IMG/VR virus record: IMGVR_UViG_3300042988_001446
Coordinates: 1 to 28,756 of that record
Reading direction: 5' to 3' (one strand)
DNA: 28,756 bases
Source of the DNA: a virus
Every line of letters begins with the position of its first letter. The stretch's first letter is position 1. Of the stretch, positions 1 through 13,794 are shown in pieces. The position numbers were made by a program, and so were the translations under genes. The notes beneath the pieces were generated by a model, which was given only the letters and a program-made list of their open reading frames with translations, had not been told where the DNA came from and did not search any database.

Positions 1-303
1 AGAGGACCAAGCATCAAATGCTAAGGACTTCGCGTTCTTCGCTGCAGCCAACGAGCCCATGGTAAACATGGCTCTCGCCGCCGCCTAAAAAACGGCACTG
101 CACGCCGGGTAGGGGATGGGTCCCTTAGCCTATCAGGCGATAAACCGAGTATATGGGATCTGCCGCCGAGGGGGTGGGCCACCGGACCCCTCGGAATAAG
201 TGATTGAGTGGCGAGTGCCCGGCGGCGGGGTTCAGCCGACAAGCTTGTAGTGATCGCTGGTTAGTAACTTTGGACGGGGGTTCGATTCCCCCCGGGTCCA
301 CCA
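1..303 (+). ncRNA. ssrA: tmRNA (3' part; 5' end lies before the window)
   Basis: Transfer-messenger RNA rescues stalled ribosomes: it is charged with alanine, enters the A site and switches translation to a short degradation tag. Seen here: a tag frame ending N-M-A-L-A-A-A-stop (stop at 86-88), followed by GC-rich, pseudoknot-like helices (for example 166-173 with 187-194). The 3' tRNA-like domain has a GGGGG/CCCCC T-stem around TTCGATT (276-292), acceptor strand CGGGTCC, discriminator A300 and encoded CCA 301-303. The stretch AAGCTTGTAGT...TTTGGACG (241-275) closely follows the 3' domain of known bacterial tmRNAs. T70 of the acceptor fits the G3-U70 alanine identity pair, but the 5' strand is outside the window. 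The tag may start at GCT 20 (22 codons, context AAATGCTAAGGA) or GCC 47 (13 codons). No terminator separates it from the gene starting 14 nt downstream, so it may be processed from a longer transcript. Confidence 0.93.
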
Positions 304-1771: not shown

Positions 1772-4057
1772 ATGGCAAAGCCACGCAACCCCAAGGGAAA
1801 AAAGAAGGAAATCACTCCCGCTGGTGATTTTGAATCTACTGAGGACCGCACCCCCAAGAAGAAGGGTGAGGAGTCAGTAGAGGATCAAGAAAAGAAAAAG
1901 CTACGGCTTAAGATCCTCAAGAAGTTGATGAAGGATTTCCCGCCATGGACTGATCTGGGAGCTGAGGACCCTGAGTACATAAAGGCGATTCAGGATAAGT
2001 ACCAGTCTCTGCTTGCTAGCTTGAGGCCGCCTCCGGCACCGCCTGCGCAGTGGAAGCAAGATCTTGCTAAGATCCCGAAGTCAGATCTAGCTCCAACAAC
2101 GGCAGTCAAGGGCGTCCAGGGAACGACGATAGAACCTAGAAGCAGGTGGGCCGGAGGTCGTAAGGTCGGTGGTCCGTTTGGTGCCGCCAGTGGTCCGAAT
2201 CCTCCTGTTAGAAGCGGTGACATTGACATTGACCCACAACCAACTGGTGCGGCTCCTGTGGAGCCTGATCCCATTCCGGCAGGTTTGGACGTGCCCGCCG
2301 GAAAGACTCCCGCTCAGTTTGCTGGTACGACTAAGCAGATTGCCACGAAGCAGTCACCTGGTCTCACACCCCAGCAGGGTGGTCCGACGATAGACACGAG
2401 AGTGGGAGATGCGCCCGATGATGTTCCTACGGGGATAGAGATCGACCCAAATAACCCCGAGTGGAAAGCTCTCTCCCCTGAGGTTCAGGGTGAGATCATC
2501 CGGCGTATTAGGATGTCGATACTGAAGGCGCGAGGTGCTGCGTCTGGTTTCACCGGGGGTGGGAAGGGTGGCAAACGCAAGATCTGGGGTACGGACATGT
2601 CCGGCCCAGGTATTGACCCCGACGAGAAGGACCCAGAGAAGCAGCCAAAGGAGCCTATCACGGGACGCATGGCTCCCGCTCCTGCAGGAGAGCGTCAGCT
2701 GATCCAAAACGATCTTGACCGGATCAAGCACTTCATCGAGAATTGGGGCGATTACGCCATCGATAAGTTCTCGTCTGTTGGCTCTCGCTCCAAGAAGAGA
2801 GTGACAGATCCAGAAGACGTTGTCGTGAAGAGGTGGGACCCGGAACAGGGTAAAGAGGTTGAGTTCACGTATAAGGGAAGCGGAGGTGGCATCACCAGGA
2901 CGGGTGGCGAGATGGCTCGCAGCAAACAGAGAGCTTTGAATCTCATCGATGCTCTCCCTCGTCTCTCCGGTACGAAGATGCAGCAGGCGCACAACATCAT
3001 CTACGATTTCATCAGAGTGGCGCTCAAGGGAGCGCGTGCAAAACTGCGTAGAGACGCGTACGATCACCTTGTAGACAAGGGACTGATCGATGCGCAGCGT
3101 GGCCGAGGCGTGAAGTTCGACCCCAGAACAGGTGAGCTTTCGTACCTAGCTAACAGAGACGCTGTCGAAAGGTCGAAGGAGTTCAACGACGAGCTTGCCG
3201 CGATAAGCAAGAAGCTTGATGCTGATGCGACCACGGACCTCGCGAATAACAGGTTGTTAGCTAAGATCACCGGTGGTATGAAGAAGATGACGGGCCGCAG
3301 CGGTGGAGCAGACCCTGAGTATCTCTCGTTCGACAAGCCCACGTTCGATCCAGCAACAGGCATCGGCGGCGCAGCACCTGAAAAGACGAGAGCAGCAGGG
3401 GTGTTCTCGGGCGAGAATCCTCCGCTCCAGGATCCTGATCCTGTTGACCCTGTAGCTATTGATCCTGACACGGGTGAAGAGATCGTTGGCAAGCAGTCTG
3501 GAGAGCCTCTTGGCCAGGTTCGCCGCGACCCAGGCGTTGCGAGGACTATGGGTCAGAGATCTCACACGATGGCTCCGGCCTCGAAGATGTCACCCGAGAT
3601 GACGGGTGGACCAGCCATCCGTGTTTGGAACGATCCTCTGCAGAAGAAGGGTGGTGAGGTTGAGGATCGTTGGATGGTCACCGTGAACGGTGTACAGATC
3701 GGCAAGTACTACAAGAAGCAGAGCGAGGCGTGGGACGCAGCGATTGAGGCTAGCAAAAACTTCCCACAGGCTACGAAGCGTAGCAACAAAGAGCCCAAGC
3801 CGAAGCCGGCACGTTCTGTGCATGCCAGAGACCCACGGGTCGCGATCACAGATCCGTGGCTTCGTGCTCAGGTCGCTCCAGCGACTCGAGATCAAGGAGG
3901 AGGCGTTCCAACGCCACAACCAGAGGAACCTCGCAGTCCAGGAGGCTATATACTACGCAAGAAGAAGCCGGTCAAGGATTGGTTCGATCGGTACTCCCAG
4001 CAGGTTCTTGAATCTGTGAACGGAGACGGGTCTCCCAATTGGTGGGATGACCTCTAA
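1772..4057 (+). CDS. Large charged, partly disordered protein of unknown function
   Basis: 761 aa, start set by GAGGAGG about 10 nt before ATG 1772. I do not recognise a family. The N-terminal 60 residues are very rich in Lys/Glu, followed by a proline run (RPPPAPPAQW near 85-94) and a long Gly/Pro/Asp-rich section that looks disordered. The centre (about 310-520) is more ordered and predicted helical, with many Arg/Lys. Near 600-670 a compact segment (RVWNDPLQKKGGEVEDRWMV, then VNGVQIGKYYKK) looks like a small beta-rich domain. The C-terminus ends in GSPNWWDDL. It lies between tRNA-Ala and the lysis-like genes, and the next gene has its own strong ribosome site. A virion-internal or scaffold-type protein is possible, but nothing in the sequence proves it. 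Confidence 0.7.
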   Translation: MAKPRNPKGKKKEITPAGDFESTEDRTPKKKGEESVEDQEKKKLRLKILKKLMKDFPPWTDLGAEDPEYIKAIQDKYQSLLASLRPPPAPPAQWKQDLAKIPKSDLAPTTAVKGVQGTTIEPRSRWAGGRKVGGPFGAASGPNPPVRSGDIDIDPQPTGAAPVEPDPIPAGLDVPAGKTPAQFAGTTKQIATKQSPGLTPQQGGPTIDTRVGDAPDDVPTGIEIDPNNPEWKALSPEVQGEIIRRIRMSILKARGAASGFTGGGKGGKRKIWGTDMSGPGIDPDEKDPEKQPKEPITGRMAPAPAGERQLIQNDLDRIKHFIENWGDYAIDKFSSVGSRSKKRVTDPEDVVVKRWDPEQGKEVEFTYKGSGGGITRTGGEMARSKQRALNLIDALPRLSGTKMQQAHNIIYDFIRVALKGARAKLRRDAYDHLVDKGLIDAQRGRGVKFDPRTGELSYLANRDAVERSKEFNDELAAISKKLDADATTDLANNRLLAKITGGMKKMTGRSGGADPEYLSFDKPTFDPATGIGGAAPEKTRAAGVFSGENPPLQDPDPVDPVAIDPDTGEEIVGKQSGEPLGQVRRDPGVARTMGQRSHTMAPASKMSPEMTGGPAIRVWNDPLQKKGGEVEDRWMVTVNGVQIGKYYKKQSEAWDAAIEASKNFPQATKRSNKEPKPKPARSVHARDPRVAITDPWLRAQVAPATRDQGGGVPTPQPEEPRSPGGYILRKKKPVKDWFDRYSQQVLESVNGDGSPNWWDDL

Positions 4058-6130: not shown

Positions 6131-6976
6131 TTGCGACCATACGTTAGTTACTCAGAGATCAGCAGCTTTGCGAATGACTGTCAGTGGCGTTGGAAGCTAG
6201 ACTACCTTGAAGGTGGTCGCTCCGATAAGTTCTCGCTGCACTTTGATTTCGGCGGCGCGGTCCACGAGGCCATCGAAAAGTATCTCTCACGGAAAGATCC
6301 CGTCTCAGTCGATGAGGCATGCGAGATCTTCCGAACTCAATTCAAGAAGCTATACGCAGAGAACAGCCCATTCTACGGCGGCGAGCCCATCGCTGAGAAA
6401 GAGATAAACGAGCTCTTGGCTTCTGGCGCGAACATCATCACGCGCCTCAAGGATTGCGAGGAGCTCAAAAACGCTGAGGTGGTTCATAACGAGTATGCTC
6501 TGCTCGAGGACATCGGACGTGAGAATCCGGCTGAGGAGATAAAGTTCAAGGGCTTCATCGACATCATCCTGAGAGCGAAGGACAAGCGCGGTAACACGAT
6601 CCTTTGGGTATGCGACTTTAAGACCTGCCGGTGGGGTTGGGACCGCGACACTCGCCAGGACCGCTGGAAGCACTACCAGCTGTTCCTGTACAAGCACTAC
6701 CTCTGCAAGAAATTCAACCTGGATCCCAAGCTTGTCAGGACTGCGTTTATCCTCCTGAAGCGTATGCCCCCAAAGGGTGCGCCGCCCATCGAGTTTTTCC
6801 AAGTCAGCGCCGGGCCTGTGAGCGTGCAACGCGCGCTTGATACGCTCGGCAGCATCATAACTGAGATGTACGAAAAAGAGAAGACCGGAAACTTTGACAA
6901 GAACAGAAACTCATGTTCTGATAGATATGGGAACAAGTGCCCGTATCTCGGTAAGCCTGCCTGCCCGGAGAAATAA
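6131..6976 (+). CDS. PD-(D/E)XK nuclease, Cas4/AddB-like with Fe-S cysteines
   Basis: 281 aa from a TTG start. AGAAAGG lies about 12 nt upstream, and the family's N-terminal SYSEISSFANDCQWRWKLDY begins right after. Nuclease core: D144 in GFIDIIL, D162-F-K164 in WVCDFKTC, and Q183-x3-Y187 in HYQLFLYKHY, the RecB-family motif set. One cysteine near the N-terminus (C17) and three at the C-terminus (C262, C270, C278) follow the 4Fe-4S layout of AddB and Cas4. These enzymes resect DNA ends. In phages they are linked to recombination and genome processing. No CRISPR genes are nearby, so a Cas4 adaptation role is not supported. The stop overlaps the next start (TAATG). Confidence 0.85.
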   Translation: MRPYVSYSEISSFANDCQWRWKLDYLEGGRSDKFSLHFDFGGAVHEAIEKYLSRKDPVSVDEACEIFRTQFKKLYAENSPFYGGEPIAEKEINELLASGANIITRLKDCEELKNAEVVHNEYALLEDIGRENPAEEIKFKGFIDIILRAKDKRGNTILWVCDFKTCRWGWDRDTRQDRWKHYQLFLYKHYLCKKFNLDPKLVRTAFILLKRMPPKGAPPIEFFQVSAGPVSVQRALDTLGSIITEMYEKEKTGNFDKNRNSCSDRYGNKCPYLGKPACPEK

Positions 6977-8301
6977 TGGAAAAGAAGAAAATTCTGACGA
7001 TCTCGGACCACCCGTTGATCCCCAGTGGCGTCGGTCTTCAGACTCGGTATGTTATCGAGGGCCTGCTCAAGACAGGCAAATACAAGGTTCTTAGCTGGGG
7101 AGCTGCTATTAAGCACGCTGATTATCGTCCACAGAACGCCTTCCCAGAGATTTACAAGGGCGACTGGATGATTTATCCGATCGATGGGTATGGCGATCGT
7201 GATCGGATGAGAGCATTCATCCTCAATGAGAAGCCGGACGCTCTGTTTATCGTGACCGACCCACGGTTCTACACGTGGCTCTTCGAGATGTCGGACGAGA
7301 TTAAGCAGAACGTACCGGTCGTCTACTGGCATGTCTGGGACAATGACCCGACGCCAGAGTTCAACGATGCGTACTACGAGAGCATTGACTACATGGTTCC
7401 GCTCTCGCTGAAGACGTACGGCCTTCTCCAGGACATGGAGAAGCTCAAGCTGTACAGCGGAAAGTACAAGTACGTCCCGCACGCCATCCCTCCTGATGTG
7501 TTCAAGATCATGCCTGAGCAACAGGTGATGGAGTTCAGAAAGGCGAAGCTTGGACCCCACTGGGACAAGAAGTTCATCATCTTCTGGAACAACCGGAATG
7601 CGCGTCGAAAGATGAGCGGCGATGTCGTGGTCGCAGCAAAAATGCTGGCGGACGTGGTCGGGAAGCAGAATGTGGCTCTGTTCCTGCAGACCCAAACGAA
7701 GGATCCGGAGGGCCAGGACCTGATCGCGGTCGGCAAGAAGTTCGGCTTTGAGAACAACATGATTATCTCTGAACAGCGGGTGTCGCCAGAGGATCTGAAC
7801 ATGTTCTACAACTCAGCCGACCTCACTCTCAACATCGCAAACAACGAGGGATTTGGTCTTGGAACCTTGGAGAGCATGATGTGCGGCACTCCCATCGCTC
7901 TCCAGATGACGGGTGGGTTGCAGTTCCAGATCGGTGACTGGTGGGAGGGACTGACTGACTTCTCTAACCAAGACAAGCTCACCGAGATCGCCAAGTCAAA
8001 GTGGACGCGTAAGGAAGGAAAGTGGTTTGGAGTCCCTATCTTCCCGGCTGCAAGGTGCTGCACAGGCAGCCAACCTATCCCGTATATCTACGACGACCGT
8101 GTCTCGTACGAGGACACAGTGAAGGCGTTGAAGCAAGTGTACGATATGGGTCGTCCTGCCCGAAAGGAGCTCGGGATCAAGGCTAGAGAGTGGGCGGTGA
8201 AGACGTTCAACATGGACGTGATGCTTAACAGCTTTGACGACATTATCACTCAGTCTATCGCAGACTGGAAGAAGCCGGTACCTAGGGTGGTGACGTTGTG
8301 A
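6976..8301 (+). CDS. Glycosyltransferase, GT4-like (GT-B fold)
   Basis: 441 aa. The N-terminal half starts with a Rossmann strand and glycine-rich loop (ILTISDHPLIPSGVGLQTRY), as in retaining GT-B enzymes. The C-terminal half has FIIFWNNRNARRKMSGDVV near 197 and the EX7E signature E291-GFGLGTL-E299 followed by MMCGTPIA, which binds the nucleotide sugar donor. Residues about 345-380 contain an insertion with two cysteines. It is coupled to the nuclease gene upstream (TAATG) and to a membrane protein downstream (GTGA). It is the first gene of the glycan block. Donor and acceptor are not deducible. Confidence 0.85.
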   Translation: MEKKKILTISDHPLIPSGVGLQTRYVIEGLLKTGKYKVLSWGAAIKHADYRPQNAFPEIYKGDWMIYPIDGYGDRDRMRAFILNEKPDALFIVTDPRFYTWLFEMSDEIKQNVPVVYWHVWDNDPTPEFNDAYYESIDYMVPLSLKTYGLLQDMEKLKLYSGKYKYVPHAIPPDVFKIMPEQQVMEFRKAKLGPHWDKKFIIFWNNRNARRKMSGDVVVAAKMLADVVGKQNVALFLQTQTKDPEGQDLIAVGKKFGFENNMIISEQRVSPEDLNMFYNSADLTLNIANNEGFGLGTLESMMCGTPIALQMTGGLQFQIGDWWEGLTDFSNQDKLTEIAKSKWTRKEGKWFGVPIFPAARCCTGSQPIPYIYDDRVSYEDTVKALKQVYDMGRPARKELGIKAREWAVKTFNMDVMLNSFDDIITQSIADWKKPVPRVVTL

Positions 8302-13071: not shown

Positions 13072-13794
13072 ATGGCCAATTACTTCACTAAGGCAACGGA
13101 CGCAAGCATCGAAGCATTCCAGGTAGCGCCCACGGATGAAGAGAAGCACCACATCTTTGATAAAGAGATCAGGCCCGCTTTTGAGAAGCTGATCGAGAAC
13201 CTGATCTTCGTCTACGGCTTCTACAGCTTGGGCGACCCAGAGACCCTCAAGCGTGAGTGTTTGACAGATCTCTACAACACTCTGCCTAAGTTCGACGCAA
13301 GCAAGTCAGCAAACCCTGGTAAGCCGACGTCCACCAGTTTCAGCTACTTCAACATGGTGGCAAAGAACTGGTTCATCGCTCGTTCTCGTGAGAACCACCG
13401 TCGCAACAAGAATGAGTCTGAGCTCTTCTATGATCTTGACCACGAAAAGGTAAAGACTGACCCGAACTTCATTGTTAGCCCTCATGAGACTCTTCTGGAG
13501 GAGAAGGAAAAGTGGCTTGAGTTCTATAAGGCCATGGACTCGTGGCGTCACCGGTTGACCAAGAAGAACGAGAAGCAGATCTTGGAGGCCATCATCTTCA
13601 TCATGAAGAATGCTGAGATGGTCACGATCTATAACAAGAAAGCGGTCTATGTATACCTGAGGGACCTAACTGGGCTTAACACGAAGCAAATCGTGGTAAA
13701 CCTAAAGAAGATCAAGGCCCTGTATGAAGAGTGGTGCGAGGAGTACTACTCGACAGGAGCATCTAGCCATGGCAGAAAAGAAGACATTGGTTGA
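13072..13794 (+). CDS. gp55-like sigma factor for late transcription (probable)
   Basis: 240 aa. Residues about 35-110 resemble sigma70 region 2 as it is kept in T4-type gp55: a helix with FEKLIENLIFVYGFY, then LKRECLTDLYNTLPKFDASKSANP and FSYFNMVAKNWFIARSREN. The pattern F-D-x-x-K-x-x-N-P...F-x-Y-F followed by a helix matches the gp55 core-binding and -10 recognition part. A C-terminal helical segment (about 165-225) could be a region 4-like or adaptor domain. gp55 is 185 aa in T4, so this is longer. In T4 it acts with the sliding clamp and gp33 at TATAAATA-type promoters. I found no such clear late promoter in the window. The next gene overlaps its end by 26 bp. Confidence 0.62.
   Translation: MANYFTKATDASIEAFQVAPTDEEKHHIFDKEIRPAFEKLIENLIFVYGFYSLGDPETLKRECLTDLYNTLPKFDASKSANPGKPTSTSFSYFNMVAKNWFIARSRENHRRNKNESELFYDLDHEKVKTDPNFIVSPHETLLEEKEKWLEFYKAMDSWRHRLTKKNEKQILEAIIFIMKNAEMVTIYNKKAVYVYLRDLTGLNTKQIVVNLKKIKALYEEWCEEYYSTGASSHGRKEDIG

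Follow-up and report, generated by a model that had tools for sequence, protein, structure and literature searches.

The analysed stretch, referred to as the window, comprises 28,756 nucleotides and is identical with its record, a linear viral contig of 28,756 bases. A cmscan search of the whole window places a tmRNA match at its left end (RF00023, positions 1-303, plus strand, 51.1 bits, E = 1.4e-17), which is cut on the 5' side and covers model positions 75-374, i.e., up to the model end. The score lies above the curated RF00023 threshold of 47 bits, which agrees with the initial annotation, where a phage tmRNA had been read at 1-303 and a comparison with Rfam tmRNA models proposed; in a second program run, the same piece was placed over a shorter span and scored 40.4 bits. 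The window thus holds the 3' four-fifths of the gene, interrupted by the left end of the contig, and the missing ~75 nt on the 5' side fall beyond the record. ARAGORN made no tmRNA call at 1-303, which is expected because the tRNA-like domain lacks its 5' half. The observation is real and the assignment of 1-303 as a tmRNA gene is confirmed; phage-encoded tmRNAs are already known as a kind, and the window gene adds one more. The recognized features are collected in Table 1.

Table 1. Positions of the tmRNA features in the window and the evidence on which each assignment is based.
Feature	Position	Strand	Evidence
One-piece tmRNA gene	1..303	+	RF00023, 51.1 bits, and complete orthologue L251:2547-2927; ~75 nt missing 5'
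Probable pseudoknot 1, 3' strand AGAGGACC	1..8	+	Aligned with L251 GAAGACC, paired with GGTCATC in the Rfam alignment
Resume site CAAAT and resume codon GCT	15..22	+	A at -4, purine (A) at -3, pyrimidine (T) at -1; top profile score in the gene, 8.4
Tag reading frame AKDFAFFAAANEPMVNMALAAA and TAA stop	20..88	+	Translation; aligned with the L251 tag AKFLKNLVAANETMNFALAAA
Nine-codon N-terminal extension AKDFAFFAA (putative)	20..46	+	11-14-aa tags of glycosyltransferase-sharing phages; 9-codon extension in L251
13-residue core ANEPMVNMALAAA, like ordinary tags	47..85	+	Length and start match ANDNVAFDYALAA and others
Helix 5 at the stop codon, GCCG (77-80)/CGGC (93-96)	77..96	+	Read from the sequence; L251 equivalent CUGC/GCAG
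Pseudoknot 2 region helix, GGTAGG (108-113)/CCTATC (129-134)	108..134	+	Three two-sided compensatory changes vs L251
Pseudoknot 3 region helix, CCGAGGGG (166-173)/CCCCTCGG (187-194)	166..194	+	Two two-sided compensatory changes vs L251
Conserved tmRNA segment AAGCTTGTAG	241..250	+	Rfam alignment; identical in L251
T arm GGGGG-TTCGATT-CCCCC	276..292	+	Rfam alignment; one compensatory change vs L251
3' acceptor strand CGGGTCC and ACCA end	293..303	+	Same 7 bases in L251, opposite 5' GGGCCCG

The genes downstream of the tmRNA are of the large tailed phage type and include glycosyltransferases, a UDP-glucose dehydrogenase, and gp25-like and gp6-like baseplate wedge proteins. Relatives of the wedge protein, at ~32-33% identity, are found in the 484-kb phage LR756508 and in phages of Flavobacterium and Microcystis. 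Directly after the tmRNA, the gene at 317-1507 combines a methyltransferase-like N-terminal part with a glycosyltransferase-like C-terminal part; its protein gave no match in phage records and is matched only by L251, the relative described below. The searches with the genes at 317-1507 and 1772-4054 returned no relatives in viral contigs. A tRNA-Ala(CGC) lies at 1651-1725, 1.3 kb 3' of the tmRNA, and is 80% identical to a Rhizobium phage tRNA-Ala; a similar tRNA-Ala also occurs in the 371-kb contig of L020. At the DNA level, comparison of the first 8 kb of the window with phage records revealed only a tRNA-Ala.

The complete form of the gene is provided by a syntenic relative, L251 (IMGVR_UViG_3300032173_000404), which was found by scanning viral contigs with a DNA pattern describing the 3' domain of one-piece tmRNAs. 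This viral contig of 22,059 bases has the same gene order as the window, with protein identities of 45% (485-1495), 60% (6131-6964), 78% (6982-8298), and 77% (13072-13791). Its tmRNA, for which we know of no earlier description, is complete (L251:2547-2927, RF00023, 124.8 bits), begins with GGGCCCG and ends with CGGGTCCA; it is flanked by tRNA genes on both sides, with window-like phage genes downstream, and no SmpB was found in L251. The initial annotation had expected a GGG-starting 5' acceptor strand, complementary to positions 293-299, in the missing upstream sequence. Such a strand is present in the nearest relative, because the 3' CGGGTCC that faces its 5' GGGCCCG is identical to window 293-299; the expectation is consequently borne out by proxy in L251, not on the window's own DNA. 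L251 also shares the one-piece form, whereas it differs from the window in having 21 codons instead of 22, another extension sequence, and a 3' CCA that is not encoded (ATCA). Two other gene forms were considered and rejected: the two-piece permuted form (RF04321), since in the window the tag comes first, at 20-88, followed by the T arm and CCA end at 276-303, and a TLD-only tmRNA, since the tag frame is present in the window and conserved in L251.

Translation from GCT20 yields AKDFAFFAAANEPMVNMALAAA followed by the stop codon TAA, which corresponds to the 22 codons ending in ALAAA that had been proposed from the letters alone. The start was evaluated with a resume-site profile trained on 97 bacterial tmRNA resume sites and carrying no tight limit on tag length. 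Within 1-303, GCT20 ranks first with 8.4 bits (runner-up, 1.5), and a score as high is reached at only 6 of 57,498 positions over both strands of the whole window. Furthermore, the L251 tag, AKFLKNLVAANETMNFALAAA, aligns with AKDFAFFAAANEPMVNMALAAA and therefore supports resumption at GCT20, a frame of 22 codons, and conservation of the ALAAA end; the proposed tag start at GCT20 is upheld by both the profile and the same outer start in L251. An alternative would be resumption at GCC47 or at another inner codon, giving an ordinary tag of 13-15 residues, and the ANEPMVNMALAAA segment that begins at GCC47 does resemble one. However, GCC47 scores -4.3 in the profile and is preceded by T at -4, whereas A occupies -4 in 97/97 bacterial training sites. 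In E. coli, no determinant of the reading frame is stronger than this base (A86), and its replacement by a pyrimidine abolishes activity (PMC2481249). The position of GCT20, 11 nt past the end of pseudoknot 1, a spacing similar to that in E. coli (12 nt), also argues against GCC47, as does the outer tag start kept by L251, and resumption at the inner codon was rejected as extremely improbable.

Both tags start with AK, carry AANE in the centre, and end in ALAAA. In the codons for ALAAA there are two changes between the contigs, both silent (GCT vs GCC). Over the 22 codons, stop codon included, 15, 17, and 13 are identical at the first, second, and third codon position, respectively, a pattern that goes in the expected direction but is not strong alone. 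The extension is poorly conserved (DFAFFAA in the window vs FLKNLVA in L251). The window tag appears to consist of an ordinary 13-residue core with nine codons inserted after the resume point; in the simplest reading, nine codons would have been added in the window lineage, downstream of the resume point and ahead of an ordinary tag.

The fold was analysed by covariation in the window/L251 gene alignment, using 24 pairs in five helices: helix 5 with the stop codon, two helices in the pseudoknot 2 region, one in the pseudoknot 3 region, and the T stem. In this alignment, 95.7% of the cells are paired, a percentage biased upwards since the helices were drawn from these two sequences, and six two-sided compensatory changes are observed. 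When the partners are slid by 1-3 columns, 33-59% of the cells are paired, with 0-1 two-sided changes. In the pseudoknot 3 region helix, 2 of the 8 pairs are broken in L251. The two-sided changes are difficult to account for unless the RNA is under selection. This bears on the possibility of a decayed or decoy tmRNA that binds SmpB without tagging, for which the existing TLD-only forms, in mycobacteriophage DS6A (PMC4131195) and in LR756508 (L012), provide precedents. The window gene retains the tag, the stop codon, the helices, and the 3' end, with compensatory and silent changes between the two phages, and a decoy is very unlikely.

The assignment of the tmRNA to a phage was further examined through the glycosyltransferase at window 6976-8298, for which a scan found 30 related loci. 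A tmRNA above the family threshold occurs in 8/23 of the glycosyltransferase-bearing records searched, some of which are near-copies of one another; according to the coordinates, these eight tmRNAs lie ~3-11 kb upstream of the glycosyltransferase and on the same strand. The tags found near the related glycosyltransferase, ANNNNHFEAAALAA, ANDNVAFDYALAA, ANNNVEFDSVALAA, ANDNVEFDYALAA, and ANDDFQLAQAA, comprise 11-14 residues. The profile search with the wedge protein returned 80 relatives, and no tmRNA was found in the contig of any near one. It could be argued that the piece is a remnant of host ssrA, left where a temperate phage or island integrated into the host tmRNA gene, so that the edge piece would be an attachment-site copy or bacterial DNA: tmRNA genes are common integration sites, the window tmRNA is cut exactly at the contig edge, and one surveyed viral contig, L176, does carry a bacterial ssrA beside smpB. 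However, 303 bases including the whole tag are kept, far beyond an attachment core; L251 has a complete gene between tRNA genes, with window-like phage genes downstream; in 8 other phage records, the related glycosyltransferase has a tmRNA nearby; and no integrase was recognized among the window proteins scanned. An attachment-site remnant was rejected and is highly improbable. The earlier reading as a phage tmRNA is sustained by the RF00023 match, by the complete orthologue in synteny, and by the tmRNAs near related glycosyltransferases elsewhere.

The length of the tag was placed in context by a matched survey, in which viral contigs and bacterial genomes were searched with the DNA pattern that had led to L251 and tags were called by ARAGORN and the bacterial profile. 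Among the matches listed, unique tags of at least 16 aa account for 18/59 of the viral and 2/68 of the bacterial ones (Fisher p = 1.6e-5), and those of at least 20 residues number 14 viral vs 1 bacterial; in these counts a number of the viral contigs represent bacterial or prophage borders, L176 with its adjacent smpB is left out, and related phages are not independent. Long tags are also found in the cultured phages Tonenili (25 aa), Phabba (26), and Phass-1 (probably 24), and in two other phage contigs from the wedge-protein search (29 and 34). At 22 residues, the tag has roughly double the length customary in bacteria, where such tags are rare, whereas in phages they are not. Consequently, the description of the tag as unusual in the initial annotation holds with respect to bacteria and does not extend to phage tmRNAs, among which such lengths are frequent. 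tmRNAs have been counted in 402/18,146 phages (PMC9004378), and no survey of tag length in phage tmRNAs was found in the open-licence literature. Tags ending in AAA occur elsewhere in L129 (MALAAA), L204 (QAAA), and Myxococcus phage Mx1 (MMAAA); a pattern for MALAAA-ending tags retrieved one further phage tmRNA, that of L129, the other matches looking like protein genes. The viral-classed L176/L398 (record G061) holds smpB and a tmRNA with the 21-aa tag AKNNLPTVASNDSDFHMAIAA; it probably represents bacterial chromosome that adjoins a prophage or island, and provides a bacterial instance of a long AK-starting tag. In L145, a GOLLD RNA (RF02032, 256 bits, L145:2548-2970) lies ~0.7 kb 3' of a phage tmRNA with a 34-aa tag.

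Comparison with known systems reveals both shared and distinct traits. The tmRNAs of the Bxz1-group mycobacteriophage Tonenili and of Phabba are, like that of the window, one-piece phage forms among tRNA genes with long tags, but their tags end in LV instead of AAA and are of unrelated sequence. The huge phage LR756508 likewise has a one-piece tmRNA, together with a distantly related baseplate wedge protein (33%); it differs in a 36-aa tag ending in PAAV and in a separate TLD-only copy. The 36-aa tag, GVNNADYESAGFTAEDFAQMDGESLYHGSERKPAAV, is obtained by the resume profile (L010:1501-1947, LR756508.1 92434-92880), whereas ARAGORN calls the 8 aa GRRKPLSW at the same gene, and published ARAGORN tags of long-tag phages may therefore be wrong. 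The second copy, carried alongside the complete tmRNA, is a tagless tmRNA-like tRNA domain of 112 nt (L012:1501-1612, LR756508.1 414804-414915; RF00023, 58.2 bits; fold z = -2.7) and is resembled by the TLD-only gene of DS6A, suggested to be a tmRNA inhibitor (PMC4131195). E. coli ssrA agrees with the window gene in domain plan, resume rule, and C-terminal Ala-Ala (PMC2481249, PMC7652416), while its encoded tag, ANDENYALAA, has 10 codons and ends in ALAA; the extra Ala of the window's ALAAA shifts Leu one place from the end. The two-piece permuted phage tmRNAs (Melnitz, PMC9004378; L016 and others) are also phage-encoded, with similar proposed roles, but their gene order is permuted, whereas in the window the CCA end follows the tag. 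The exact T arm and acceptor pattern of the window recurs in other phages mostly in permuted tmRNAs, plus L035. The permuted two-piece tmRNAs of L016, L017, L018, L023, L030, L031, and L032 share this 3' end exactly, and their tags, judged by eye, vary greatly in length and sequence, from about 10 to 30 codons. Further permuted tmRNAs (RF04321) were observed in phages Xanthomonas X1, Tunturi_5, XacN1, and PaMx31 (L444, L445, L447, L449), in stretches where no tmRNA is annotated.

In trans-translation, tmRNA is charged with alanine and delivered by SmpB and EF-Tu to ribosomes at a broken mRNA end; translation resumes at the tag, and the product leaves the ribosome at the stop codon and is degraded. 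The one-piece tmRNA gene in the window is very probably functional and that of a large tailed phage; direct support is available for gene identity, tag start and length, structural covariation, tag-end conservation, and the phage neighbourhood, and rescue, SmpB use, charging, and proteolysis would follow from the anatomy. Host alanyl-tRNA synthetase would charge the phage tmRNA with alanine, and, during infection, host SmpB and EF-Tu would take it to ribosomes that have stalled on broken mRNAs. Such a ribosome would then resume at GCT20 and append the 22-residue ALAAA-ending tag after the tmRNA-borne Ala, and the protein, released at TAA, would be exposed to ClpXP-type proteases via its C-terminal Ala-Ala. 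The carboxylate of this dipeptide is the main ClpXP determinant (PMC7652416), and the window tag retains it. SmpB has been reported in huge phages (PMC7162821). In the tmRNA-bearing phage records searched here, the only SmpB match is a probable bacterial locus, so the window tmRNA presumably uses host SmpB. The most likely function, as predicted from the anatomy, is the rescue of stalled ribosomes with host SmpB and addition of an -AA degron. Rescue during host shutdown and redirection to a protease are both plausible as putative roles.

A further possibility is that, owing to the long extension, tagged proteins would be handed to a different protease or adaptor, e.g., Lon or FtsH, a function that the host tag lacks. 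In Mesoplasma, a long tag is known to be recognized by Lon, which speaks for such redirection, as do the nine-codon extension of mostly hydrophobic residues in both the window and L251 and the strong enrichment of long tags in viral contigs among the matches listed. The poor conservation of the extension is, however, what a loosely constrained spacer would show, and redirection is on balance unlikely. It is somewhat more doubtful still that lengthened tags constitute a recurrent adaptation of large-phage tmRNAs, in which residues inserted behind the resume codon, nine codons in the window, and an altered end, here ALAAA, would change which proteins are destroyed during infection, at what rate, or by which protease. 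The long ALAAA tag, conserved between two related phages, and the viral enrichment of long tags add modest interest to the finding, and raise a testable question, namely whether the phage tag and the host tag lead to different protein turnover during infection.
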